Positions 18,374 to 38,615 of a stretch of DNA of 64,000 bases are shown in pieces; within the stretch, counting starts at the first letter, position 1, and every line of letters starts with the position of its first letter. Origin of the DNA: an uncultured Saprospiraceae bacterium. Its GTDB lineage: Bacteria > Bacteroidota > Bacteroidia > Chitinophagales > Saprospiraceae. Below the pieces are notes generated by a model. It was not told where the DNA came from, ran no database searches, and saw only the letters and a program-made list of their open reading frames with translations. The stretch covers positions 1 to 64,000 of the forward strand of contig CAJQRD010000056.1 in assembly GCA_905480605.1 (NCBI GenBank), given 5' to 3'. Position numbers and translations under genes: made by a program.

Positions 18374-19333
18374 TTAGGACACTTTTTTAAACTGATTATA
18401 ATTACTTTTTACAAACGAAAACGGTTTTTGATATTCTTTATTTTCTATATTTTTCATCAGAGTCATTAGATATTTATATGGACTTGTAAAACTAACTCCA
18501 CTATGTATTCTATCAAAGTTATAGAATTTTCTAAACTCGTCCATTGTATCTATAAATTCAGTTTTTGAATCGAATGAAAACCTTTGACAAATAGCTCTTT
18601 CCATAATCGAATGATATGACTCTATATGCGCATTTTGCTGTGGCGTATTTGGTTTTGTAAACTCTTGTGTAACACCTTTTCTACTTAAAAAAAACTGTAC
18701 TTCATTTGCAATAAATTGTGAACCATTATCACATCTGACAGTAAATTTTTCTGGTAATCCATACTTTGTAATTATCTGATCAAATAGTGTTTTTACATTT
18801 TTACTACTGATATTGAACCCTATAAATTGTCCCATATTATATCTTGAATAGACATCTAATACTGTTAGAACTTGGATATTCCTTCTTAATCCTTCTATCC
18901 ACACAAACTTAATATCAAATTCAAAGAAATTAAATGCACAATTGACTTGAGGTATTAAATCCTTAACCCAATTCTTCCTTGATTTCTTACTTGACTCCTG
19001 ATATCTTTTGCGAGTTAATCCATTGCCTCTCATTATGTTATATACCTTGTGTTTAGAAATTGTGTATTTTAATTCATCCCTTAAATATATGTAGGTTTTA
19101 TAGGATCCATAGTCAACGAATGGATTGCTAAACAACTTTTCTATTTGTTTAACAACCTTGGGTTCGCTCAGTGGTCTTCCTTCATTATCCAACATTAATG
19201 CATAAGGCTTACGACCAGCTTTAGTACCCCTAGATTTATAATAATAACTACTTTTTGATAAACTACAATATCGTAATACTCTTCGTACTGGATTACCTTT
19301 TTCTATAAAATCTTGTGCAACTTCCATTCTCAA
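18374..19333 (-). CDS. IS3-family transposase OrfB (DDE integrase domain)
   Basis: 319 aa. HTH_21-type N-terminal part, then an rve integrase core: the first catalytic Asp in FEFDIKFVWIEG, the second in TVRCDNGSQFIANE, and the Glu in NTPQQNAHIESYHSIMER. The listed start is a TTG that overlaps the OrfA stop; an ATG follows two codons later. It is more likely made as an OrfAB fusion by -1 frameshifting at A8-G in the end of orfA (19348-19356). All three catalytic acids are present. Confidence 0.9.
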   Translation of the reverse strand: MRMEVAQDFIEKGNPVRRVLRYCSLSKSSYYYKSRGTKAGRKPYALMLDNEGRPLSEPKVVKQIEKLFSNPFVDYGSYKTYIYLRDELKYTISKHKVYNIMRGNGLTRKRYQESSKKSRKNWVKDLIPQVNCAFNFFEFDIKFVWIEGLRRNIQVLTVLDVYSRYNMGQFIGFNISSKNVKTLFDQIITKYGLPEKFTVRCDNGSQFIANEVQFFLSRKGVTQEFTKPNTPQQNAHIESYHSIMERAICQRFSFDSKTEFIDTMDEFRKFYNFDRIHSGVSFTSPYKYLMTLMKNIENKEYQKPFSFVKSNYNQFKKVS

Positions 19334-24064: not shown

Positions 24065-24253
24065 ATACCAATTGTAAATATTATATCACGCTTACTATTT
24101 TAAACCTGACGAATAATATTTCTTAAAAATTAATTGTTTGAAAGATAGTAGTTTTAAATAAATTATAAAAAGAATACTTTATCTATATCGTTTTACATTT
24201 AATTGATATCGCTTTTCTTTAAATTACATTCAGAACTCTTAAAACGAATACAA

Positions 24254-27200
24254 ATGGAAACATCAAGCAGATTTAACCTTAAAAGAGCATATTTGGCAAT
24301 CATATTGTGTAGTTTATTTGCTTGCAAACCTAAAGTGATAGAGCAACATTCTCCCGAGATATTATCTAATTATATAGTAAGTCACACTGTTAAGCATATA
24401 GCTCCAAATGCTCCAATTTATGTTCGATTTAATGACTTACCATATGATGATTCTAAAATTAATAAAGAGGCTAATAAGGCTATAATAAGTATTTCTCCAA
24501 GTGTTAAAGGGAAGTTTGTATGGGAAAATAATTACACATTAAGATTCGAAAGCGAAGAGTCCTTAGGCTATAATAGAAAATATATTGTAAATGTTGGTTT
24601 GGGTAATATATATGATGAAACTGAAATTAAAAATTATCAATTTGAAATAAATACTGATCAGTACTTTTTCAATGTTTCGAGCAGAAATCTTAAGCCTGAT
24701 GTTGATGGAGACAAAAATGATTGGTTGGTGTCTGCTTCATTTGAAACAAATGCAGAATTGAGGAGTGAAGATTTATCGGAGATATTTTCTATTAGTCCAG
24801 AGAATAGTAGTATTCAGTTCACGAATTTCATTAAGAAATCAGATTTAGAATATCAAGTAGATATAAAACCGTTCACTATGAAATCTAAAGCTCAAGATGT
24901 GGCATTGGAGTGGAATATTTCAGAACACAGTATCAAAGGCAGTAGTACTTTTAACATTCCTGCACTTTATGAGTTTAACTTGATGTCAGTTGATGTAATA
25001 AATACAAAGGATGGTCACTTAAGAGCAATCTTTTCCAATCAATTGGCTAAACAGAATTTTAATGGTTTGGTCAGAATTGAAAATTACAAAGGCCCTATTA
25101 AGTTTTCAAATTTAGGAAACCAATTGGATATATTTATCAATAACGATGTCGTAGGAGAACAAAAGATTGTATTTGATGCTAATATTAAAGATGTAGATAA
25201 ATTGTCATTGAAGAAAAATGTTGATTTTTCTCTTTTATTTAAATCTAGTAAGCCTGGAATAAGAGCTGCCAATAACGGAACAATTGTACCCTACACAGAT
25301 AAAGTAATTTTCCCTTTCGAAGCGATTGCTCTAGATACTGTTGAGGTAGAAGTATATAAAATATTTGAAAATAATATTCTTGATTTCCTACGATATAATC
25401 AATTGTCTAGTACCTATATGAATCAATTCTTTGGACGTGTTATTCATTCGCAAAAAATAGCATTAAAGAGTATAAATGGAGTTAGTAATTTGATGAATTA
25501 TGTAAGATATGCTTTAGTCCTTCAAAACTTAACGTCTATTGATCCAGGTGCTGTTTATCAAGTGCGGATCGGATTTAAAAAGTCGTTTGCCAACTTGTCT
25601 TGTTCTGTTGATGCCAATAATTTCAATGGACGCGGTGATAATCATTCTGCATTCAAGTCATTTAGATATTATGATGGCTACAGATATGAGCATGAAGAAG
25701 ATCCTTGCTATCCAGCTTATTACAATAACAGCAAATTTATATTTAGAAACCTTTTAGCAAGTAATTTAGGTCTTATTGTCAAAAGGGGTAAGAATAATAA
25801 TTTCAAAGTAATAGCTACAGACCTTTTAACTGGTAAGCCGTTGTCAGGTGTGAATATTAAACTATATGATAACCAACAACAAGTAATGACTGATAAAGTA
25901 ACTGACGATCAAGGGATGGTGGATATGATTAGTGAGAGGTATGCTAGATATCTAATTGGCAAGCAAGGCAATAATTATGGCTATGTTTCTCTCGAAGATC
26001 AACACAGTAATGAAATGTCAGCTTTTGATGTTAGTGGTGTATCTCAAAAAGGAGATATCAATGGATACTTGTTTGGAGAGAGAGGTGTATGGAGACCTGG
26101 AGATACACTTCACTTAAGTTACATGTTGTATGATAAGAAAAACACAATCACATCTGGTCATCCAATTAAATTAGAAGTTAAGGACAGCAAAGGTAAAACA
26201 AAGTACTCTTTCAGTAAGAATAATAATGAAAACGGGTATTATGTTTTTCATGTTCCAACTTCTTCCTCCGATCCTACAGGAATGTGGACAGCAACGGCTT
26301 CATTGGGTAATATGAAGGTGTCAAAGAAGTTGAAGATCGAAACCATAAAACCTAATAGGTTGAAAGTAGACTTGACTTTTAAGAATGATGAACTTGACGT
26401 AAGTGGAAATGAGTCTTTTACACTTGATGGCAAATGGTTGCATGGTGCTCCTGCAAGTCTGTTGAAAGCTCAGGTGGATGTTAAATATTCAAAAGCCTCA
26501 TCTGAGTTTGAAAACTATAAGGATTTTGAATTTACAGATCCTGCAAGAAAAATCAAAGGAATTTTGACCAATGTCTTTGAAGGTAATTTGGATGATAATG
26601 GGCAAAGGGAATTGAAGATAAAATTTGGTAAAGACTTTAGACCACCAGGGAAACTGAATGCAAACTTAAGAACACGAGTTTTTGAGAAATCAGGAAATTT
26701 CAGTGAAGATTATACCAATGTTAAAATAAATCCTTTTGAAACTTATGTTGGAGTGAAAGTACCTGAAAACAGATGGGGTGGCAGAGCATTGAATGTTGAA
26801 AAAAATGAGGCTATAGAAATTGTGGCGGTAGATAAGAATGGTAAATTGTTAAAGAATAGGAATTTGTCGATTGGGATTTACAACGCAAAGTGGAGATGGT
26901 GGTATTCTCGAAACAATAGTAATATTTACCAATACAATTCATCTGAACATTATAATGCAGAGGAGAAAAAAACTTTAAAAACAAATGCGAATGGGCACTT
27001 GTCATTTGTTCCCGAGTTGAATGGTCATGGCAATTACTTGGTGCGTGTTTGTGATACCGAATCAGGTCATTGTTCTGGGCAGTTGTTTTATACCAGTTAC
27101 TATTCGAGTAATAATAAAGACGATGGGAAAATTGCACAACTTAATTTTAATACAGATAAAGATGTTTATCAAACTAATGATGAAATAGTGTTGAATATTC

Positions 27201-29764
27201 CAACAAGTCCTAATTCTAAAGTTCTGGTATCATTAGAAAATAATGAAGAAGTGATCGACGCATTTTGGGTTGAATCTACTGGCGAAATGACAACTGTACC
27301 ATTTAAGGTTCGGCCAGAAATGTTGCCTAATGTATATGTGCATGCAACCTTAGTTCAACCTGCAAGTAACAACAATGACCTGCCCATGAGGTTGTATGGA
27401 GTCAAGTCAATAAAGGTTGAAGATCCTAATACTATTTTAACGCCAACAATCAGTTGTGAAGAAGTTTTTGAACCCAATTCGAAAGTTAATATTACAGTAG
27501 GAGAAAAAGAAGGTAAAGAAATGTCTTATACCTTAGCTGTCATAGATGAAGGTCTGTTAGATATTACAAATTTTATAACACCAAATCCTTCCAAATATTT
27601 CTTTGCAAAGCAATCATTGGGAGTCAAATCTTGGGATGTGTATGACTTGGTCCTCAATAAAAACGGCAGTGAAATAGAAAAGATATTTAGTATTGGCGGT
27701 GATGACAGCAATAATCAAGAATCCAAAAACCCATCTGCAAATAGATTTAAGTCAGTCGTAAAATTCTTAGGACCATTTACTTTAAAAGGTGGTAAGTCTA
27801 TTAATCATTCAATTGAAATTCCCAACTACATTGGTTCTGTTCGTGTGATGGTTGTTGGAAAAACCCGAAAAGCATTTGGTCGTATTGATAAAAACATACC
27901 TGTAAAGAAACCATTAATGGTCTTGTCTACATTGCCGAGGGTGTTGGCTCCGGGCGAAAAATTATCTATGCCAGTAAATGTATTTGCTTATCAAAATGAT
28001 ATAAGAAATGTACAAGTCAAGGTAGATAGTGACAGCTATGTAAAATCAATTGGTAGCAAGAATAAAACATTGTCATTTGATACACAAGGTGATAAATTGG
28101 CATATTTTGATTTTATGGCTGGAGATCAAGTAGGCATTGCTCATTTTGATGTAGATGTTTCTTCAGGTAAATACAGCGCCAAAGAAAGAATTGAAATCGA
28201 AATTCGAAATCCAAATCCTGAACAAAATGTTGTGTATTCTGAACTGGTAAAAAGTGGAGAATCCTGGAATAAGTCATTTGAAAATGTAGGTATGCAAGGT
28301 AGTAATTCAGCAAGTATTGAAATAAGTAAATTTCCTTCCTTCAATGTTGATAACCGGTTAAGATATTTGGTGAAATATCCTTATGGTTGCGTTGAACAAA
28401 CTACATCGTCAGTTTTTCCACAGTTGTTTCTTGATGAGATTTCTAAAATGGATGATAATAAAAAACTGAGTATTAAACGCAATGTAAAAGCTGCTATACG
28501 AAGACTTCAGAGTTTTCAAACAGCTAGGGGTGGTTTGGCATATTGGCCAGGATCTACAAATGACAATGAGTGGGGGACTAACTATGCAGGTCACTTTATG
28601 CTTGAAGCCAAAAATAGAGGATACTTTATTAATGAGTCATTTTTGAATGAATGGATAGTATTTCAAAAGTCAAAAAGTGATAACTATGTAAAAAATAACG
28701 GCTTGTATCATCAAAGGACACAAGCCTATAGATTGTACACTTTGGCTTTGGCTGGAAAAGCTAATTTAAGCGCTATGAATCAATTAAGAGTTGATGTAAA
28801 GATGCCGAAAGTTGCTAGGTTCCTACTAGCGGGTGCATATGGTTTGATAGGTCAAGATCAGGTTGCCCTTGATTTGATTCATAATTTGGATTATGCGATA
28901 CAAGAGTATGATGATTGGTATTGGACTTATGGATCTTCTGTTAGGGACCGTTCAATTATACTTATGACTTTGATGCAAATTGGAAAGTCAAAAGATGCTT
29001 TTAAATTGGCAGTTGACTTGGCTGAAAAAATGGGATCCCATAATTGGTATAGTACTCAGACGACAGCTTTTGGACTCATGGCATTATCAAAATTTCTTGG
29101 TCAACAAAGTAAAGATGACCTTGTATATGATTTTGATTTAGACAAAGACATGACGGTTTCCCATTCATCTGCTGAAGCTTTGGATTTGTATAACTTGGAT
29201 TTGTCTAAAAAGCAAAATCATAAATTTAATTTCACCAACAAATCAAAAGGTGATATATACGTGCAAATTGTAAATTCTGGAAAGCCATTGCCACAACCTA
29301 CACCTTCTTTTAGCAATGAACTTGAGATGCAGGTTGTGTATAAAGACACAGACGGAAAATCTATAAATCCTAATGTGTTAAGTCAAGGAACCGACTTTAT
29401 AGCTGAGATTACTATAACAAATGCTTCTAAATCAGGAAAGAAATTTTCCAATTTGGCATTGAATCATGCTTTGCCATCCGGCTGGGAAATACAAAACCTG
29501 CGTTTGGGTGATATGGGAGCTTCCAATACTACGGATACAAATAGAGGCAGAAGCAAGCATTTATATGACTTTCAGGATGTTAGGGATGCCAGTATCTATA
29601 CTTTCTTCGACCTTAACTTTAAGGAATCAAAGAAATTCGAAACTCCATTGACAGCAACGTATGCAGGTGATTTTTTTATGCCCAATATTTCTTGTGAAGC
29701 CATGTATGATGCGGCAGTGGTTGCAAGTCAAACTGGTGCATGGATTAAAGTAATTCAGGATTAA
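24254..29764 (+). CDS. Alpha-2-macroglobulin family lipoprotein (YfhM-like)
   Basis: 1836 aa from the ATG at 24254, chosen because it gives a lipoprotein signal ending LFACK; a longer frame begins at 24203. The order of macroglobulin domains is typical: beta-sandwich repeats, the MG segment with GYLFGERGVWRPGDTLHLSY, the A2M core with RVLAPGEKLSMPVNVFAY, and the thioester motif YPYGCVEQTT (Cys1379, Gln1382), then an alpha-helical thioester-domain toroid. The intact C-x-E-Q thioester predicts covalent trapping of attacking proteases in the periplasm. The next gene, pbpC, overlaps its stop by one base, a pairing known in many bacteria. Confidence 0.93.
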   Translation: METSSRFNLKRAYLAIILCSLFACKPKVIEQHSPEILSNYIVSHTVKHIAPNAPIYVRFNDLPYDDSKINKEANKAIISISPSVKGKFVWENNYTLRFESEESLGYNRKYIVNVGLGNIYDETEIKNYQFEINTDQYFFNVSSRNLKPDVDGDKNDWLVSASFETNAELRSEDLSEIFSISPENSSIQFTNFIKKSDLEYQVDIKPFTMKSKAQDVALEWNISEHSIKGSSTFNIPALYEFNLMSVDVINTKDGHLRAIFSNQLAKQNFNGLVRIENYKGPIKFSNLGNQLDIFINNDVVGEQKIVFDANIKDVDKLSLKKNVDFSLLFKSSKPGIRAANNGTIVPYTDKVIFPFEAIALDTVEVEVYKIFENNILDFLRYNQLSSTYMNQFFGRVIHSQKIALKSINGVSNLMNYVRYALVLQNLTSIDPGAVYQVRIGFKKSFANLSCSVDANNFNGRGDNHSAFKSFRYYDGYRYEHEEDPCYPAYYNNSKFIFRNLLASNLGLIVKRGKNNNFKVIATDLLTGKPLSGVNIKLYDNQQQVMTDKVTDDQGMVDMISERYARYLIGKQGNNYGYVSLEDQHSNEMSAFDVSGVSQKGDINGYLFGERGVWRPGDTLHLSYMLYDKKNTITSGHPIKLEVKDSKGKTKYSFSKNNNENGYYVFHVPTSSSDPTGMWTATASLGNMKVSKKLKIETIKPNRLKVDLTFKNDELDVSGNESFTLDGKWLHGAPASLLKAQVDVKYSKASSEFENYKDFEFTDPARKIKGILTNVFEGNLDDNGQRELKIKFGKDFRPPGKLNANLRTRVFEKSGNFSEDYTNVKINPFETYVGVKVPENRWGGRALNVEKNEAIEIVAVDKNGKLLKNRNLSIGIYNAKWRWWYSRNNSNIYQYNSSEHYNAEEKKTLKTNANGHLSFVPELNGHGNYLVRVCDTESGHCSGQLFYTSYYSSNNKDDGKIAQLNFNTDKDVYQTNDEIVLNIPTSPNSKVLVSLENNEEVIDAFWVESTGEMTTVPFKVRPEMLPNVYVHATLVQPASNNNDLPMRLYGVKSIKVEDPNTILTPTISCEEVFEPNSKVNITVGEKEGKEMSYTLAVIDEGLLDITNFITPNPSKYFFAKQSLGVKSWDVYDLVLNKNGSEIEKIFSIGGDDSNNQESKNPSANRFKSVVKFLGPFTLKGGKSINHSIEIPNYIGSVRVMVVGKTRKAFGRIDKNIPVKKPLMVLSTLPRVLAPGEKLSMPVNVFAYQNDIRNVQVKVDSDSYVKSIGSKNKTLSFDTQGDKLAYFDFMAGDQVGIAHFDVDVSSGKYSAKERIEIEIRNPNPEQNVVYSELVKSGESWNKSFENVGMQGSNSASIEISKFPSFNVDNRLRYLVKYPYGCVEQTTSSVFPQLFLDEISKMDDNKKLSIKRNVKAAIRRLQSFQTARGGLAYWPGSTNDNEWGTNYAGHFMLEAKNRGYFINESFLNEWIVFQKSKSDNYVKNNGLYHQRTQAYRLYTLALAGKANLSAMNQLRVDVKMPKVARFLLAGAYGLIGQDQVALDLIHNLDYAIQEYDDWYWTYGSSVRDRSIILMTLMQIGKSKDAFKLAVDLAEKMGSHNWYSTQTTAFGLMALSKFLGQQSKDDLVYDFDLDKDMTVSHSSAEALDLYNLDLSKKQNHKFNFTNKSKGDIYVQIVNSGKPLPQPTPSFSNELEMQVVYKDTDGKSINPNVLSQGTDFIAEITITNASKSGKKFSNLALNHALPSGWEIQNLRLGDMGASNTTDTNRGRSKHLYDFQDVRDASIYTFFDLNFKESKKFETPLTATYAGDFFMPNISCEAMYDAAVVASQTGAWIKVIQD

Positions 29765-32100
29765 TGAGATTGTTGAAGTTGACATATGGAATAGTATTTA
29801 TATTTTGCTGTTGGTTGATAATACCAACGGCGAGTCACCTTGATCGTATGCCTGTTAGCTTCGTTCTTTTTGATCAAAATGAATCCTTATTAGGAGCGAG
29901 AATCGCTGTCGATGAGCAGTGGCGATTTCCAGAAATGAATGATGTTCCTTATAAATTTGAAAAGGCAATTATAACCTTTGAAGACAAGAATTTCTATAAG
30001 CATTTTGGGCTTGATGTTAAGGCAATTATAAGGGCATTGTATTTAAATATTAAGAAGAAACGCGTAGTAAGTGGTGCCAGCACATTAAGTATGCAGTTGA
30101 TGCGATTGCATGATCCTGGATCTAAACGCACAGTGGTTCAAAAGATCTGTGAAATCTTGAAAGCTATAAAATTTGAGGCGCAATATTCTAAAAAGGATAT
30201 ACTACAAAAGTATGTGACTCATGCTCCATTTGGTGGTAATATAGTTGGCTTGGAGGCCGCTTCGTGGAGGTATTTGGGTAAGTCGCCTTTTAATCTGAGT
30301 TGGGCAGAAACGTGTATGCTTGCGGTTTTGCCAAATGGGCCTTCATTGATACACCTTGGGAAAAATAGAGATAGACTCCTTGTTAAGCGCAACAGTCTTT
30401 TAAAGAGATTATTTGAGCTTTCTATTATTGATGAAACAGAATATAAGTTGGCTCTGTTGGAGAAAATTGCACCAAGGCCTGAGCCACTTCCTAATTTGGC
30501 ACCACACTTTCTTGAGAAGGTGAAAGCAGAAAATTCTGACCTTCGTTATGTTTCTACTTTACAGCTAGATAAGCAAACTCTTCTTAATGAAGTAGTTGCC
30601 AGTCAGGACTTGATCAATAAGCAAAAGGGCATTAATAATTTGGGTGTTCTAATTGTCAATAACCATACAAAAGAGATTGAAGCATATGTTGGAAATACTT
30701 CTGGCAGAAAACATCAGAATTACAACAATATGATTGAGCGCCCTCGGTCATCTGGTAGTATATTGAAGCCGATATTGTATGCAATGGCAATGCATAACGG
30801 GATGATAACACCTGATGGCCTGGCCAATGATGTACCATTGAGTATTGGTGGATTCAGTCCAAAGAATTACAATCGGAATCATTTTGGTGTTGTTCCATAT
30901 TCTACTATGATAGCAAAGTCACTAAATGTGCCTGCTGTAAATTTGCTTAAAGATTATGGTATTGGACGCTTTTTAAATGACTTAAAGTCTTTGGGCTTTT
31001 CAACGTTTAAATATGATTCAGATCATTATGGTTTGCCTTTGATTTTAGGTGGTGGCGAGGTTAATTTGATTGACTTGGTTCATGTCTATTCAGGAATGGC
31101 AGAAACGCTGAATCTGTTTTTAAGTAACAATTCAAAATACTTGACTAATGGGTTTAATAAAATCACTTATGATTCTGAAAAAAAGAAGAAAAATGATAAA
31201 TTTCAATATGATCCGCGTTTTATTTCAGCTGGGGCAATATGGTCAACATTCAATGCAATGCTAAATGTTGAAAGACCAAACGAACAGGGACAATGGCAGA
31301 AGTATAACAGCTCACAAGCTATTCATTGGAAAACAGGTACTTCTTATGGCAATAGAGATGCTTGGGCGGTGGGTGTTACATCCGATTATACTATTGGTGT
31401 ATGGGTTGGTAATTCTAATGGTGATCCTCAGCCAGATATTGTTGGTGTTTCAGCTGCTGGTGCTGTTTTATTTGATTGTTTTAATTTCCTTGAAATAAGC
31501 CAGCCTTTTGAAATACCATATGATGATTTACAAGAGAAAATAATATGTAAACACTCAGGGCAAGTGGCCTCTAGGAATTGCAAGTCTACATCTTTGGATT
31601 GGATTCCTGTTACAACCTTAGCCAATCAATTTTGTAATTTTTGCCAAAGAACTTTCTTAAATGCAAAGAATGGAAGAATGGTTTATCAGGATTGTACTGA
31701 AAGTTCTGATATTGTAGATACGAGTTATTTTGTCTTACCTCCGTTGGCATCATATTACTACAAGCAAAATAATCCAACATATTCGGATATACCAATGTTA
31801 GACTTTTCTTGTCAGTCGTTGTCTACAGAATTTGAAATATTGGCTTTTGAATATCCTAGAGAAGATGTAACTGTATATTTGCCAAATGATTTATCTGGTG
31901 TGAAGGAAAAGTGCGTATTCAAGGCAAAGCACCAAATGGAAGATGCTAAGGTTTTTTGGCATATCAACAATGATTATCTGGGGAGTACTGAAGATATCCA
32001 CCATATGGCTGTTGATTTAAAATCTGGCAATTATAAACTGACCATTCAAGATGAATTTGGGATGAGTCAAAGTCACTGGATATCTGTAATTTCAGAATAA
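29764..32100 (+). CDS. pbpC: Penicillin-binding protein 1C
   Basis: 778 aa. One N-terminal membrane anchor, a glycosyltransferase-51 domain with catalytic Glu73 in FEDKNFYKHFG, and a transpeptidase domain with SxxK at Ser332 (SSGSILKP), SxN in KSLNVPAVN and the KTGTSYGNRDAW motif. A C-terminal BiPBP_C-like sandwich (about 690-778) is typical of PBP1C. It polymerises and cross-links peptidoglycan. Its first base is the last base of the alpha-2-macroglobulin stop codon (TAATG), so translation is coupled; the pair is thought to repair the wall after protease or immune-like attack. Confidence 0.93.
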   Translation: MRLLKLTYGIVFIFCCWLIIPTASHLDRMPVSFVLFDQNESLLGARIAVDEQWRFPEMNDVPYKFEKAIITFEDKNFYKHFGLDVKAIIRALYLNIKKKRVVSGASTLSMQLMRLHDPGSKRTVVQKICEILKAIKFEAQYSKKDILQKYVTHAPFGGNIVGLEAASWRYLGKSPFNLSWAETCMLAVLPNGPSLIHLGKNRDRLLVKRNSLLKRLFELSIIDETEYKLALLEKIAPRPEPLPNLAPHFLEKVKAENSDLRYVSTLQLDKQTLLNEVVASQDLINKQKGINNLGVLIVNNHTKEIEAYVGNTSGRKHQNYNNMIERPRSSGSILKPILYAMAMHNGMITPDGLANDVPLSIGGFSPKNYNRNHFGVVPYSTMIAKSLNVPAVNLLKDYGIGRFLNDLKSLGFSTFKYDSDHYGLPLILGGGEVNLIDLVHVYSGMAETLNLFLSNNSKYLTNGFNKITYDSEKKKKNDKFQYDPRFISAGAIWSTFNAMLNVERPNEQGQWQKYNSSQAIHWKTGTSYGNRDAWAVGVTSDYTIGVWVGNSNGDPQPDIVGVSAAGAVLFDCFNFLEISQPFEIPYDDLQEKIICKHSGQVASRNCKSTSLDWIPVTTLANQFCNFCQRTFLNAKNGRMVYQDCTESSDIVDTSYFVLPPLASYYYKQNNPTYSDIPMLDFSCQSLSTEFEILAFEYPREDVTVYLPNDLSGVKEKCVFKAKHQMEDAKVFWHINNDYLGSTEDIHHMAVDLKSGNYKLTIQDEFGMSQSHWISVISE

Positions 32101-32496: not shown

Positions 32497-33192
32497 ATGT
32501 TTGATATTACTTCATTACAGTATAATTCAGAAAATCCAACCATAATGGCCGTTGGTTTTACTGTTATATGCGCACTAATGCTTGGGACCTTAATTGCATT
32601 TACCTATGAAAAAACAAGTAGTAGAGTAGATCGTCCCGATCATTTTTTGCAAGCCATGGTCCTTGTAACCATAGTGGCTGCCACAATTATCCAAGCGATT
32701 GGGGATAGTGTAGCTCGAGGGTTGGGAATGCTAGCTGCCTTGTCAATCATAAGATTCCGTACAACTGTACGAGATCCAAGAAACATTGTTTTTATGTTTG
32801 GTGCTATCGCAGCGGGAATAGCTTGCGGTGTTTTTGGTTTTGCAATCGCCATTTGTGGTACAATAACATTTTGTTTGACAGCTTTTATATTGAGATTTTC
32901 TTCTTTTCACAAGTCTGAAACGATGTCAGGAATGCTTAGTCTTGATTTACCGGCTTCATATGATAGGTTGAAAGAACTAGAGGCTGTAATTAAGAAGTTC
33001 TCTTTGCGTTATAAATTGGCTGAATTTAAATTATATACTGGCGTGAACAAAGAGGGCTTAAAGAAACATGATTACAAAATTAAGCTCAAACAATTTGAAA
33101 ATTGGGAAAAACTCTTAATTGAATTAAAAGGCTTTACTGATGTAACAATTACTGGTCTGGAACTTAAAGAACGTGAGTTCGACAATATTTAA
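32497..33192 (+). CDS. DUF4956 integral membrane protein
   Basis: 231 aa. About four hydrophobic segments occupy residues 15-135, with the family signature GLGMLAALSIIRFRTTVRDP followed by IVFMFGAIAAGIACGVFGF. A soluble C-terminal part (about 140-231) is Lys-rich and probably cytosolic. The biochemical role of DUF4956 proteins is unknown; they are commonly found beside CotH kinases and polyphosphate-polymerase (VTC) genes. Here the neighbours are an adaptor protein, a TolC-like protein and CotH, with no VTC gene visible. It starts the cassette; the next gene begins 9 nt after its stop. Confidence 0.85.
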   Translation: MFDITSLQYNSENPTIMAVGFTVICALMLGTLIAFTYEKTSSRVDRPDHFLQAMVLVTIVAATIIQAIGDSVARGLGMLAALSIIRFRTTVRDPRNIVFMFGAIAAGIACGVFGFAIAICGTITFCLTAFILRFSSFHKSETMSGMLSLDLPASYDRLKELEAVIKKFSLRYKLAEFKLYTGVNKEGLKKHDYKIKLKQFENWEKLLIELKGFTDVTITGLELKEREFDNI

Positions 33193-33201
33193 ATACATTA
33201 T

Positions 33202-34302
33202 ATGAAACGTTTTAATCTGTTATATTTCATTGTTATACCTCTTGCTTTCATTTGGTATAAAATGCATACCAGTATTGGTCAACAGTCTGTATTTTTTTAT
33301 GGCTTTGCTGAAAATAAAGAAACGGAATTAAGTCATGATGAGGATGTACTTATTTATAAAATTCATGTGACACCAGGTCAGGAAGTTAAAAAAGGGGACT
33401 TGTTGATGGAAGTAACTCAGGATGAAATCGACTTTAAATTGAGTCAGGTCAAAAACAAGTTAAACGATGTTGCTTTTGATGTCAAAAAACAGCGGAAAGA
33501 TATTCTAGATGAGATTTCACAATTAGATTCTAAAAAACAAGCGAAGATTGAATCCTATAAAATTCAAATCTCTGGGGAAGAAGAAATATTAGATCAGCAA
33601 AAAAAACTGTTAGATAACTTATCTACAATTGATGCTTCTAAATTTGAGAGAACATCATCTGCACATTTTAAAAATATTGAGTCTTTAAAGAAAATGATGG
33701 CTATTGAGGTAAAGCCTTATGAAGTTGAAATCGAGCAATTACAACAAAAGTTGAAAATTATAGATACGCCTCTGGTAAATGCTCAGAGTCAATTTGAGAA
33801 AGAAGAAAATTTTCTAAAAGGGGAGCAAGAGAAGTTAAAAATTACGGCGCCTACTGATGGATTGATTGGAAACATTACTTGTAAGGAAGGAGAAAATATT
33901 TCTGCATTTACATCATTGCTTAATTTTTATGAGCCAAGACCAACTATTGTAAAGGGATTTGTCCATGAAAGTTTGATACTTTCTGTCCAACGCATGGATA
34001 GTCTTCAGATTACATCTAGTTTACATCCTGACTTAAAAGTATACGGGATTGTTATCGGTCTCGGTAATAGAATTGTTGAGATACCTGAACGCATGCGAAA
34101 AATGCCAGATATTAAAACTTATGGACGTGAAATATTAATCCAAATTTCACCTAATAATCCTTTTTTACAGAAGGAGAAAGTTTTTTTGAATGCCATCGCA
34201 GAAGATGGTACTTCATTTCAGAATTATAATGATACAACAGTTTCTAGATTAAGTCAAACGAAGAAAAAGTCAGATAATCCATTTGCTGAAAAATCAAAAT
34301 GA
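33202..34302 (+). CDS. HlyD/RND-type periplasmic adaptor (membrane fusion) protein
   Basis: 366 aa. N-terminal membrane anchor (about residues 5-22), first half of a lipoyl-like domain (IYKIHVTPGQEVKKGDLLMEV), a long coiled coil (about 75-210), the second lipoyl half (LKITAPTDGLIGNITCKEGE) and a beta-barrel part. This is the build of adaptors that bridge inner-membrane transporters and outer-membrane channels. No ABC, RND or MFS pump is encoded nearby, so its inner-membrane partner may be the DUF4956 protein; this is inference. Its stop overlaps the next start by 4 nt. Confidence 0.82.
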   Translation: MKRFNLLYFIVIPLAFIWYKMHTSIGQQSVFFYGFAENKETELSHDEDVLIYKIHVTPGQEVKKGDLLMEVTQDEIDFKLSQVKNKLNDVAFDVKKQRKDILDEISQLDSKKQAKIESYKIQISGEEEILDQQKKLLDNLSTIDASKFERTSSAHFKNIESLKKMMAIEVKPYEVEIEQLQQKLKIIDTPLVNAQSQFEKEENFLKGEQEKLKITAPTDGLIGNITCKEGENISAFTSLLNFYEPRPTIVKGFVHESLILSVQRMDSLQITSSLHPDLKVYGIVIGLGNRIVEIPERMRKMPDIKTYGREILIQISPNNPFLQKEKVFLNAIAEDGTSFQNYNDTTVSRLSQTKKKSDNPFAEKSK

Positions 34303-35522
34303 TGAGGTATTTTCTTTCTATCATATTATGTCATTTGACAATCTTTTTAGATGCTCAAAAAAGTGTTTCTACTGATGATTTATTGTTTGGAAATCTCAAC
34401 GTTATAAGTACAGAAAATTCAGAAGCTGTTTTAGAGTTGCCACAATTTGGTGCGCTATCAATCGTTGATAAATGGGAGTTTCGAACAGAAACGGATGAAT
34501 GGGATTTTAGCAGACAGGAATACACATTAAGAGCTAGTTTTAATGGATTCAGCAGTAAGAATATTTACAATGAGATTAACAATGTAAATAGAGAAACCTT
34601 TCTTCTATTTGAAAAGCAATATCATGAAAATGCTATTTTTCAAAAATATAAAAGCATAGTTGAATTATATTACCTGCAACAAAAAAACATGTTGGCAGAT
34701 TCATTGCTGATCATCTTGAAGGACAAGAAAGCAATTGTTGACTTTGAAATAGCCAATGGGTCTTCATCTAATATTAATGAGCTCGTTAATATTGATTTTG
34801 CTATTCGTGAAATTGGTATTGACCAAAATACGTATGAATTTAAAAAGAAATTGCTTTTGCAACAATTAGGCGTCAATTCTGATGCAAATCAATTTCTAAT
34901 TGACACGACAGCGTGGATCAGAAATATTACAATTATTGATGTTTTGGCAATTAATGATGTCAATTTGAATTCGGAAATCAATCTGAAATCTCAAAAATTA
35001 AAGTATCGGAATCTAGAACTAGAAAGACAGAATAGTGAAGCCAAACGTATTTTGGATTTTGCACAATTAAAATATGCTGGCAGAAATCAACTGACAGCAT
35101 TGAATGAGTTTTCAGTTGGTTTTGGAATCAATATTCCTACTAAGTCCAGTAATATCCGAAAAAGAAGTGAAGCTTTGGTTGACAAATTGGAAGATGAGTT
35201 AGAGTTGAAACAAATAAAAGCCAATGTTTATCAAGAAATAGAAGAGTTGATATTTAAAATTAAAATGAAAAATCTTGAATATAATTCATACGATAAATAT
35301 ATACGGGAAATAGAATCTTCAAAAACATCCATGTCATTTGATTTATACAGTGATCCTAATTCAGGTTTAGAATATAAGCTCAATAATTTAAAACTGCATA
35401 AGGACATATTAAATATTGAAAACCAATTGGTTGAGGATTATTTAGAACTTCTTATGATTAAGGGCTGGTTTCTTTATTATCCCGATGTTAATTTTTTATC
35501 GGATAATTTCAAATTAGACTAG
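34299..35522 (+). CDS. TolC-like outer-membrane efflux factor
   Basis: 407 aa with a signal peptide (ending FLDAQ). Two long helical-hairpin regions with heptad character (about 90-190 and 210-380), LNSEINLKSQKLKYRNLELE and NEFSVGFGINIPTK (a short strand pair), match the repeated layout of outer-membrane efflux proteins, though the sequence is divergent and slightly short. It overlaps the adaptor gene by 4 nt, the normal arrangement for an adaptor/TolC pair. No typical OEP motif was strong enough for certainty, so the assignment rests on architecture and context. Confidence 0.65.
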   Translation: MMRYFLSIILCHLTIFLDAQKSVSTDDLLFGNLNVISTENSEAVLELPQFGALSIVDKWEFRTETDEWDFSRQEYTLRASFNGFSSKNIYNEINNVNRETFLLFEKQYHENAIFQKYKSIVELYYLQQKNMLADSLLIILKDKKAIVDFEIANGSSSNINELVNIDFAIREIGIDQNTYEFKKKLLLQQLGVNSDANQFLIDTTAWIRNITIIDVLAINDVNLNSEINLKSQKLKYRNLELERQNSEAKRILDFAQLKYAGRNQLTALNEFSVGFGINIPTKSSNIRKRSEALVDKLEDELELKQIKANVYQEIEELIFKIKMKNLEYNSYDKYIREIESSKTSMSFDLYSDPNSGLEYKLNNLKLHKDILNIENQLVEDYLELLMIKGWFLYYPDVNFLSDNFKLD

Positions 35523-35606
35523 AGGAATCAATAGATAATTTCAAAGCAATATGTCCTTACACGCGCAACAGGAATTTATATTTTTTAAGTGAATGAAAAA
35601 TAAATT

Positions 35607-38549
35607 ATGAGTAAACATTTTATCCTCACCTTGATTTTTTTGGGATATGTGCAATATGCTAACACACAGATTACAGTAAATGAGTTTTCTGTTTCCAATC
35701 TTGAAAGTTTTGCAGATAGCTTTGGTAAAACTGAAGACTGGATTGAGCTATACAATTCAAGCAGTTCTCCAGTTGACATCAGTGGATGGCATTTATCAGA
35801 TAAGGCAACGAAAGAAAAAAAATGGAAAATTCCTGCTGGACTTATTATTCCTGCTAACGGATATCAGGTCTTTTTATGTTCAGGGCGAGACGGTGTCTTT
35901 AGCGAAGAATACCATACTAATTATAAACTGGCACAAACCAAAGGGGATGAAGTTATACAACTGTCAGATGCTGATGGAAATGTTATTGAGTCACATGCAA
36001 TTCCGCTTACCCTGGTAGAGCATTCTGTGTGTAGACTGACAGACGGAAGTAGTGAATGGCGTATATCTGATAAACCAACTTTTGGCATATCAAATAATGG
36101 CTCAGCTCAGTTTATCGGATATACTGCGACACCTACTATAGAATTGGACGCTGGTTTTTATCAAGGCAATCAATCTGTGAGTGTAATCAACAATGAATTA
36201 AATTCTATCTTGAGATATACAAGTGATGGCACAAACCCTACTGCTTCTTCTCCAATTTATAACAATGCAATTTCTATTACAGAAACTACTGTTATAAAAG
36301 TGCAAGCGTTTAGCCTAAACAGTGAGATACGTCCTGGAAAAATGGATTTCGCTACCTTTTTCATTAATGAAGATTTTTCATTGGCAGTTTTTTCTGTAGC
36401 AGCAGATGAAGTAGTTGATTTGGCAAATGGAAATGGTGATTTATTGCCAGTAGGTTCGTTAGAGTATTTTAACATAGACAAGGAAAGAGAAGCAACTGCA
36501 TTTGGCAGTTTAAATAGACATGGGCAAGATTCATGGGTGCTTAATCACAGAAGTTTGGATTGGATCACAAGAGACGAAATGGGATATGCCAAAGCAGTAG
36601 ATGCAAAGCTTTTTGGTTATTCAGATAGAGATGAATATCAGAAATTTATGTTTAGAAACTCTGGTGACGATAATTACCCGGCGATTAATGATGGCAACCA
36701 TGATGGCGCAACGCATATTCGTGATGAATACGTTCAAACTTTGGGTATGGAAGGCGGTCTTAAAATGGATCAACGTGCTGTAGAAAGAGTGATTGTCTAT
36801 TTGAATGGGCGGTATTGGGGCGTATATGGAATGAGAGAGAAAGCTGTTGATCATGATTATACAGATGAGTACTATGATCAAGGAAAATATGATTTGCAAT
36901 ACTTGACAACTTGGGGAACAACTGAGCTTCAATATGGCGGTGTGCAAGCATTATATGATTGGGAGAATCTTAGAGATTTTATATTAAATGAAGACATGAG
37001 AATTGACTCAAACTATCTAAAGGCTTCCGACAGTTTAAATATGGTTTCATTGATGGATTATATGTTGCTAAATTTGAACGTAGTAGCATCCGATTGGTTA
37101 AATTATAACACTGGATGGTGGAGGGGATTGAATAAAGATGGGGACCATAAGAAGTGGGGATATATCATGTGGGATTTAGATGCTACGTTTGATTACTATA
37201 TAAACTATACAGGAGTTCCTAATATTAGTCCAACAGCAAAACCATGTGATCTGAATGCAATCTCTGATGCAGTGGATTACTTCTGGGCAGGTTACGAAGG
37301 AGGTGACCCGATTGAAAACCCTGAAGAATGTGCAACTATTGTCAATGGATCATCTCCTTATCCGGTTACTGATTCCATATTTTTATTAGTAATTAATCAA
37401 GATGGTTATTGTTGCGAAAACAATTGGGATGCAACATGTCAAGGTATCTATGACCAACTAGATAATAATGGAGGTATTTCAAATGGTGATCCAGCAAATT
37501 GTACTACAATATTAAATGGTACATCACCCTATCCTGCTACTGATCCGGCATATGTATTAACTATTAATGATCTGCCTCAATGTTGTGATACAGAATGGTC
37601 ACAACAGTGTGAACTGTTTTACCAGTTTTATCTTAATTATGGCGGAGGCCAAGGGGGTGAGATTCAAATTTCTGGTAATGTGGGAAAACATGAAAAGATA
37701 TTTTTGAAGTTATTGGATGAGAGTCCGAAATTTAAACAACTTTACTACCAACGATATGCTGACCTAATGAATACAACTTTTAGTTGCGAAAATATGATTA
37801 CTACCTTGGACAGTATGGTTGCCGTTATTGAGCCTGAGATGCCAAGGCAAGTTGAAAGGTGGGGCGGAACAGTTGAGGAATGGAAGCTAAATGTTGATAC
37901 TTTGAAAATGTTTATAAGTGAAAGATGTCAACTTTTGGATGATGGCGCAATAGGATGCTATGACGATTTGGATGGACCTTACAACATCACATTAATGGCA
38001 ACACCAACTGGAATTGGGGAAATAGATTTTAATACATTGGATATTGAATCATTCCCATGGTCTGGAGATTATTTTGGAAATGTATCCAATGATATAAAAG
38101 CAAAAGTTTTCAAAGAGTTTGAAGATGATTATGAGTTTAGCCATTGGAGATCTGCTTCAGGAAATGTAATTTTTCCTGACGTAAATTCAAGAAAGGCTTC
38201 AATAACTTTAACTGGTAATGATACTTTGACAGCTGTTTTTAAAGAAAATGGAACGACTTCAACTTTGGATTTTGACGATAGATTTTTACTAGCGGCTTAT
38301 CCAAATCCTGCCGTCGATATGTTGACTGTACAATATTATGTTGGAGATGCCAGTAATGTTTCTCTAGCATTATATTCGATGTTGGGAGAGAAGGTGATGG
38401 ATTTTACAGCGGCTGGTGGCAAAAGCGTTTCTGGAGACCAAACAGATCAGATTTCACTTGTAGATAATAGAATTGTTAATGGATTATATAACCTTGTACT
38501 CAATGTTGATGAAATAACGAGGAGTATCAAAATCAATATTGTAAAATAA
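35607..38549 (+). CDS. T9SS-exported CotH-type kinase with lamin-tail domain
   Basis: 980 aa. Signal peptide (1-20), lamin-tail domain (about 21-135; DWIELYNSSSSPVDISGWHL), chitobiase-like sandwich (about 170-255; LRYTSDGTNPTASSPIY), CotH kinase domain (about 300-770) with VIVYLNGRYWGVYGMREK and the metal-binding WGYIMWDLDATFDYY. An InlB-like repeat (about 795-890) and a type IX sorting domain (AYPNPAVDMLTVQYY to the end) follow. Two cysteine-rich repeats (about 550-680) interrupt the kinase domain. CotH proteins phosphorylate protein substrates; here the enzyme would work outside the cell. It lies 84 nt after the TolC-like gene, and a good terminator follows. Confidence 0.88.
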   Translation: MSKHFILTLIFLGYVQYANTQITVNEFSVSNLESFADSFGKTEDWIELYNSSSSPVDISGWHLSDKATKEKKWKIPAGLIIPANGYQVFLCSGRDGVFSEEYHTNYKLAQTKGDEVIQLSDADGNVIESHAIPLTLVEHSVCRLTDGSSEWRISDKPTFGISNNGSAQFIGYTATPTIELDAGFYQGNQSVSVINNELNSILRYTSDGTNPTASSPIYNNAISITETTVIKVQAFSLNSEIRPGKMDFATFFINEDFSLAVFSVAADEVVDLANGNGDLLPVGSLEYFNIDKEREATAFGSLNRHGQDSWVLNHRSLDWITRDEMGYAKAVDAKLFGYSDRDEYQKFMFRNSGDDNYPAINDGNHDGATHIRDEYVQTLGMEGGLKMDQRAVERVIVYLNGRYWGVYGMREKAVDHDYTDEYYDQGKYDLQYLTTWGTTELQYGGVQALYDWENLRDFILNEDMRIDSNYLKASDSLNMVSLMDYMLLNLNVVASDWLNYNTGWWRGLNKDGDHKKWGYIMWDLDATFDYYINYTGVPNISPTAKPCDLNAISDAVDYFWAGYEGGDPIENPEECATIVNGSSPYPVTDSIFLLVINQDGYCCENNWDATCQGIYDQLDNNGGISNGDPANCTTILNGTSPYPATDPAYVLTINDLPQCCDTEWSQQCELFYQFYLNYGGGQGGEIQISGNVGKHEKIFLKLLDESPKFKQLYYQRYADLMNTTFSCENMITTLDSMVAVIEPEMPRQVERWGGTVEEWKLNVDTLKMFISERCQLLDDGAIGCYDDLDGPYNITLMATPTGIGEIDFNTLDIESFPWSGDYFGNVSNDIKAKVFKEFEDDYEFSHWRSASGNVIFPDVNSRKASITLTGNDTLTAVFKENGTTSTLDFDDRFLLAAYPNPAVDMLTVQYYVGDASNVSLALYSMLGEKVMDFTAAGGKSVSGDQTDQISLVDNRIVNGLYNLVLNVDEITRSIKINIVK

Positions 38550-38574: not shown

Positions 38575-38615
38575 AAGCTTCGGCAAATACATAAGTATGA
38601 GCTGAAGCTTTTTTT
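38575..38615 (+). terminator. Rho-independent terminator after the CotH gene
   Basis: A 10-bp stem (AAGCTTCGGC paired with GCTGAAGCTT, one G-T pair) with a 16-nt loop, followed by a run of T. It closes the DUF4956-CotH cassette. Confidence 0.75.

Follow-up and report, generated by a model that had tools for sequence, protein, structure and literature searches.

A conserved DUF4956-adaptor-TolC-like gene trio in Bacteroidota and Fibrobacterota, a candidate trans-envelope complex with CotH-kinase neighbours

Introduction

The usual inner-membrane partner of a periplasmic adaptor and a TolC-family outer-membrane factor is an RND, ABC or MFS pump, and the adaptor EmrA serves MFS pumps. Adaptor-TolC systems are already known, and so is a gene set comprised of DUF4956, CotH and VTC.

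The latter set is described in two papers as a CotH-polyphosphate polymerase (VTC)-DUF4956-DUF4832 accessory cluster located beside pel in streptococci and clostridia (PMC7112168; SIR_1591-1594 of S. intermedius, PMC12345266). According to the second paper, published in 2025, deletion of the apparent DUF4956 homologue or of the CotH gene in S. intermedius leads to less aggregation and altered Pel levels. SIR_1592, which is the DUF4956 homologue by gene order, is reported there to combine an MgtC-type membrane domain with an ACT domain, and MgtC is cited as a regulator rather than a transporter (PMC12345266). This suggests that DUF4956 may merely sense or gate. The CotH kinase of the Bacillus spore coat also acts extracytoplasmically, and there too the source of ATP is a question (PMC7821199).

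The locus described here lies in a stretch of 64,000 nucleotides from an uncultured Saprospiraceae bacterium, hereafter called the window. It encodes a DUF4956 protein, an adaptor and a TolC-like factor (together, the trio), followed by a CotH protein. Among tripartite efflux and type I secretion systems, EmrAB-TolC is the nearest by its adaptor, and the window shares with these systems a HlyD/EmrA-like adaptor and a TolC-fold factor encoded in one operon. In contrast to them, the window operon has no RND, ABC or MFS gene, and DUF4956 is found at the inner-membrane position. The Gram-positive pel accessory cluster resembles the window in having DUF4956 and CotH, and trio loci of Fibrobacterota have VTC as well; however, no adaptor or TolC is described for that cluster, and the window locus has no adjoining VTC. 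With the MgtC family (PF02308) there is a weak HMM cross-match, motifs of the membrane core are in common, and the model has a C-terminal ACT-like domain, whereas the window protein itself lacks a PF02308 match and is linked to an adaptor and TolC. Finally, the window CotH has the CotH domain of the Bacillus kinase, but differs from it by a fused LTD domain, CHB_HEX_C, a T9SS tail and a Cys-rich repeat inserted in the kinase domain. A combination of the adaptor-TolC and DUF4956-CotH-VTC sets, with DUF4956 in the pump's place, was not found in the literature searched, which covered few subscription journals, and the passages naming DUF4956 in that literature contained no link to adaptors or TolC.

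Organisation of the locus

The operon consists of the following features:

32497-33192, + strand: DUF4956 inner-membrane protein, 231 aa (Pfam PF16316, AF2 model)
33202-34302, + strand: HlyD/EmrA-type periplasmic adaptor, 366 aa (Pfam, NCBIfam, conserved adaptor alignment)
34299-35522, + strand: TolC-fold outer-membrane factor (OEP), 407 aa (AF2, Foldseek, Pfam OEP in relatives)
35607-38549, + strand: secreted CotH-kinase protein, 980 aa, an optional neighbour (Pfam, NCBIfam, sequence inspection)
38575-38611, + strand: intrinsic terminator at the operon end (RNA fold)

An earlier sequence-only reading of this DNA had proposed a closed cassette of four tightly packed genes. The ORF coordinates agree with it for all four genes and for their spacing: a gap of 9 nt between DUF4956 and the adaptor, an overlap of 4 nt between the adaptor and OEP, and a gap of 84 nt before CotH. 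The proposed terminator was also borne out, since RNA folding finds a hairpin 3' of the last stop codon, at 38575-38610, followed by T7 (-18.5 kcal/mol, z = -6.0). A simple terminator scan of the window listed none at the operon end.

Conservation of the trio

When GTDB genomes were scanned with the DUF4956 alignment, 335 relatives came up, and the best 80 of the 335 were examined with their flanks; the nearest named ones belong to Saprospiraceae MAGs. After thinning at 85% identity and the addition of order-level loci, 73 non-redundant Saprospiraceae-type loci were available. The adaptor comes after DUF4956 in 71 of the 72 that could be evaluated, and the TolC-like gene is kept in order in 67 of 68; the exception is L142, where DUF4956 stands alone. 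Intergenic gaps are mostly a few nucleotides long, and 17 pairs have the exact 4-nt adaptor-OEP overlap of the window.

The same order, DUF4956-HlyD-OEP, is seen far outside this family. It is found in all ten loci fetched from other Bacteroidota and in 25 of the 26 fetched from Fibrobacterota; the one exception in this set (35/36 keep the order) is L271, which has adaptor and OEP without DUF4956. These 36 loci were counted by a stop-to-stop six-frame scan, because antisense ORFs mask trio genes in several Fibrobacterota loci under a longest-ORF rule. The distribution of the adaptor is uneven: it is present in 62 of 150 Saprospiraceae genomes and in 93 of 151 from Fibrobacterota (the phylum of L145), and is rare across the Bacteroidota phylum (19/395 sampled genomes, mostly from one other family, f44). 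In f44, neither CotH nor VTC was seen beside the trio. Single in-frame stops in one view had raised the possibility that the f44 adaptors are pseudogenes; this was rejected, as full-length adaptor ORFs are present.

The sequence-only reading had also remarked on the missing pump, and this holds beyond the window: among the immediate neighbours of the trio in about 60 relatives no pump family recurs, with one ABC_tran match in 57 upstream genes. The refutation suggested in that reading, that homologous loci would consistently be without the adaptor and TolC genes, clearly failed; on the contrary, both are near-obligate with this clade of DUF4956. Judged by gene order, the conserved unit is the trio and not the quartet. 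Of the four-gene cassette, the DUF4956-adaptor-TolC part stood, while CotH is not fixed in presence or place. Given the conserved linkage, it is near certain that the trio proteins act together.

The DUF4956 protein

Pfam DUF4956 (PF16316) matches the window protein with an E-value of 1.8e-13. Its AF2 model (mean pLDDT 82.8) has a short N-terminal helix, five transmembrane helices and a C-terminal domain with an ACT/ferredoxin-like fold. VIA-align places residues 139-231 with NikR, S6 and ACT-type domains at a Z of about 10, and the Foldseek matches include ACT domains and the nucleotide-binding PII-like protein SbtB. In both structure searches of the PDB (Foldseek, VIA) only the C-terminal domain was matched, and the membrane part was barely covered. 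If the C-terminal domain is inside, three invariant arginines (R86, R88 and R95) would lie at the predicted cytosolic face.

The link to MgtC rests on weak Pfam matches and on the 2025 paper (PMC12345266). PF02308 weakly matches 22 of 52 DUF4956 relatives, the best at 1.2e-4, and in sister genomes two genes matched as MgtC prove to be those for DUF4956. The window protein has no match to PF02308 at E 0.05 and so falls below the cut-off of the MgtC family. Alignment of the DUF4956 family with a single MgtC sequence by hhalign found the correct region at a probability of 4%, which carries no confidence.

In a midpoint-rooted tree of 55 sequences, a branch with 100/100 support separates the DUF4956s of the trio, whatever their lineage, from ten sequences of a non-trio, VTC-type group that is mostly one genus. 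A second DUF4956 is encoded in the genome of the window itself, on another contig (C27 of G000; L003:9526-13694), followed by a 954-aa protein with just a weak beta-helix match and then by a VTC gene. Thus, the absence of VTC noted in the sequence-only reading is true of the window locus but not of the genome. Plasmid records gave just five DUF4956 matches, all distant.

The adaptor and the TolC-like factor

The adaptor belongs to the HlyD family by Pfam and NCBIfam. HlyD_3 (PF13437) and Biotin_lipoyl (PF00364) both score barely over the cut-off, and the EmrA-like model TIGR00998 gives 5e-13, yet this is under that model's own cut-off. The product of the OEP gene has no Pfam or NCBIfam match in the window, and Pfam OEP matches 12 of its 51 relatives. 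Its assignment as TolC-like was confirmed by predicted structure: an AF2 model built from 51 sequences (mean pLDDT 89.6, pTM 0.84) shows the layout of TolC, with four strands for the barrel and two long helical hairpins, and Foldseek matches it to SilC, TolC, CusC and OprM with E-values of 2e-11 to 2e-10.

In some Fibrobacterota (L262:7971-8888, L265:6691-8664 and similar loci), a domain of about 300 aa is fused to the adaptor or follows it. Both cases tested match the phytase-like family PF13449, one of them weakly.

CotH and LTD neighbours

The window CotH protein matches PF08757 (79.6 bits, E 3.8e-22) and also has LTD and CHB_HEX_C domains and a type A T9SS sorting domain (TIGR04183, 27.8 bits against a cut-off of 23). 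It is a predicted kinase, with the W-D-x-D/N motif present as WDLD at residue 522. The kinase domain is split by a Cys-rich repeat (NGSSPYP...CC..W...C...Y) at 37225-37680 of the window, residues about 540-690. The number of copies varies among orthologues: L081 and L090 have no copy, several others have one, the window has two and L153 has more.

No other gene is seen beside the trio nearly as often as CotH. CotH or LTD genes are near 28 of the 73 non-redundant loci, and the other 45 have no such match nearby, although some of their contigs are short. In 15 of 58 loci CotH is the next downstream gene on the same strand, where roughly 0.2 would be expected from about 1 to 15 CotH genes per genome; the corresponding binomial figure of 1e-23 is overstated, since it treats related loci as independent. 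The position of CotH also varies. It is downstream in the window sub-clade, where it is orthologous in about a dozen loci (51-64% identity), upstream in L120, L135 and L153, and between DUF4956 and the adaptor in L051 and L052; an upstream CotH is likewise found in the Fibrobacterota loci L262, L265, L270, L278 and L292. Many genes upstream of the trio carry T9SS tails or LTD domains. Repeated association in such varied arrangements argues for a functional link between CotH and the trio, and against CotH being a structural part of it.

Several short "CotH" matches of 230-260 aa near DUF4956 (L124, L126, L127, L131 and L081) were rejected as kinases; those that were read or scanned turned out to be LTD proteins with sorting tails.

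VTC and the phosphate theme

In Fibrobacterota, 90 of 94 cases have a same-strand VTC gene one gene beyond the adaptor (median 1.47 kb), frequently with an overlap of a few nucleotides with the OEP gene. Of the remaining four, three are genomes with VTC on another contig and one is a second copy of the locus in its genome. In those Fibrobacterota loci that were examined by Pfam, the gene after VTC encodes an LTD lipoprotein.

In Saprospiraceae a dependence of the trio on VTC was rejected: the two occur together in 31 of 150 genomes against 33.5 expected (Fisher p 0.51), and half of the trio genomes lack any VTC. Judged by this independence, the VTC product would be no more than one cargo or partner among several. 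The presence of CotH, VTC and PPK1 beside the trio suggests a phosphate-rich cargo, although co-occurrence in Saprospiraceae gives no support to a general partnership with VTC.

In Neolewinella agarilytica a PPK1 gene adjoins the trio (L132:12929-14998 / L043:11848-13920); this may be chance.

Proposed mechanism and alternatives

The favoured reading, with a probability of about 0.55, is that DUF4956, the adaptor and the TolC-like factor form a tripartite trans-envelope complex in which DUF4956 stands in for the pump and which serves a CotH/LTD system at the surface. The three layers would be DUF4956 in the inner membrane, the HlyD-type adaptor in the periplasm and the TolC-like factor in the outer membrane. 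DUF4956, with its five helices and cytosolic ACT-like sensor domain, would stand where an RND, ABC or MFS pump is otherwise found, and its ACT-like domain would control passage. The cargo, probably either an anionic product of small size or linear form or else a phosphoryl donor, would pass from the cytosol to the surface. There it would help CotH kinases and LTD proteins to assemble or modify a surface layer. A trans-envelope conduit is strongly implied; that the proteins form a physical complex, that DUF4956 is its translocating element, what is carried and that the kinase is supplied by it are steps that we infer.

Several observations agree with a trans-envelope role: the conservation of the trio, the presence of an adaptor and of a TolC fold, the absence of a linked pump, the clade-specific partnership, the CotH/LTD neighbours, the coupling to VTC in Fibrobacterota and the effects of the two S. 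intermedius deletions on aggregation and Pel. Against it stand the lack of an energy source within the trio, the EmrA-like character of the adaptor, the exceptions L142 and L271, and the description of MgtC as a regulator. In the main rival, DUF4956 is an MgtC-like regulator or gate for an adaptor and a TolC-like protein that work with a pump whose gene lies elsewhere in the genome. The similarity to MgtC, the ACT-like domain with SbtB among its fold matches, the EmrA-like adaptor and the absence of any visible energy-coupling motif in DUF4956 all fit such a role. However, the linkage of DUF4956 is near-obligate across very distant lineages while no pump gene recurrently joins, and this alternative is considered unlikely.

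It is tempting to speculate that the trio exports inorganic polyphosphate, or another product of a VTC-type or PPK polymerase, to the surface for matrix assembly or as the phosphoryl source of CotH. Yeast VTC couples polymer synthesis with membrane passage, and the position of VTC in Fibrobacterota, the PPK1 gene in Neolewinella and the invariant arginines of DUF4956 would suit this idea. Nevertheless, the chance-level co-occurrence in Saprospiraceae and the f44 trio without adjoining VTC speak against it, and the polymerase activity of bacterial VTC proteins is itself putative; polyphosphate export is thus doubtful as a general explanation. A quartet acting as a dedicated system for CotH export or activation would account for the orthologous downstream CotH of the window sub-clade, but not for the many loci without a CotH/LTD match nearby. 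The window CotH, moreover, is equipped with a signal peptide and a T9SS tail of its own and therefore has another route of export, which makes this reading very unlikely.

To return to the trans-envelope complex, its boldest form is a tentative and rather improbable one: DUF4956 would be the translocating subunit of a new class of tripartite exporter, carrying to the surface either a polymer rich in phosphate or a phosphoryl donor for use by CotH kinases and LTD proteins; VTC would make this cargo in Fibrobacterota, and other enzymes would do so elsewhere. As to the favoured reading itself, the near-obligate linkage across Bacteroidota and Fibrobacterota would give DUF4956 a concrete role, as the inner-membrane part of an envelope-spanning complex. 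This bears on the origin of the phosphoryl donor for extracellular CotH kinases, and, for Fibrobacterota, connects a polyphosphate polymerase domain of eukaryote type (VTC) with a possible route of export.

Other genes in the window and at trio loci

Upstream of the operon, within 24203-32100, a 1853-aa ORF ends where a gene of the penicillin-binding protein 1C type begins; the two are possibly the known alpha-2-macroglobulin/PBP1C pair. By eye, the ORF at 18374-19333 resembles the second ORF of an IS3-type transposase. Arylsulfotransferase (ASST) genes are found upstream of three trio loci, at L041:2935-4536, L265:1117-2748 and, recognised by eye only, L145:5300-6745.
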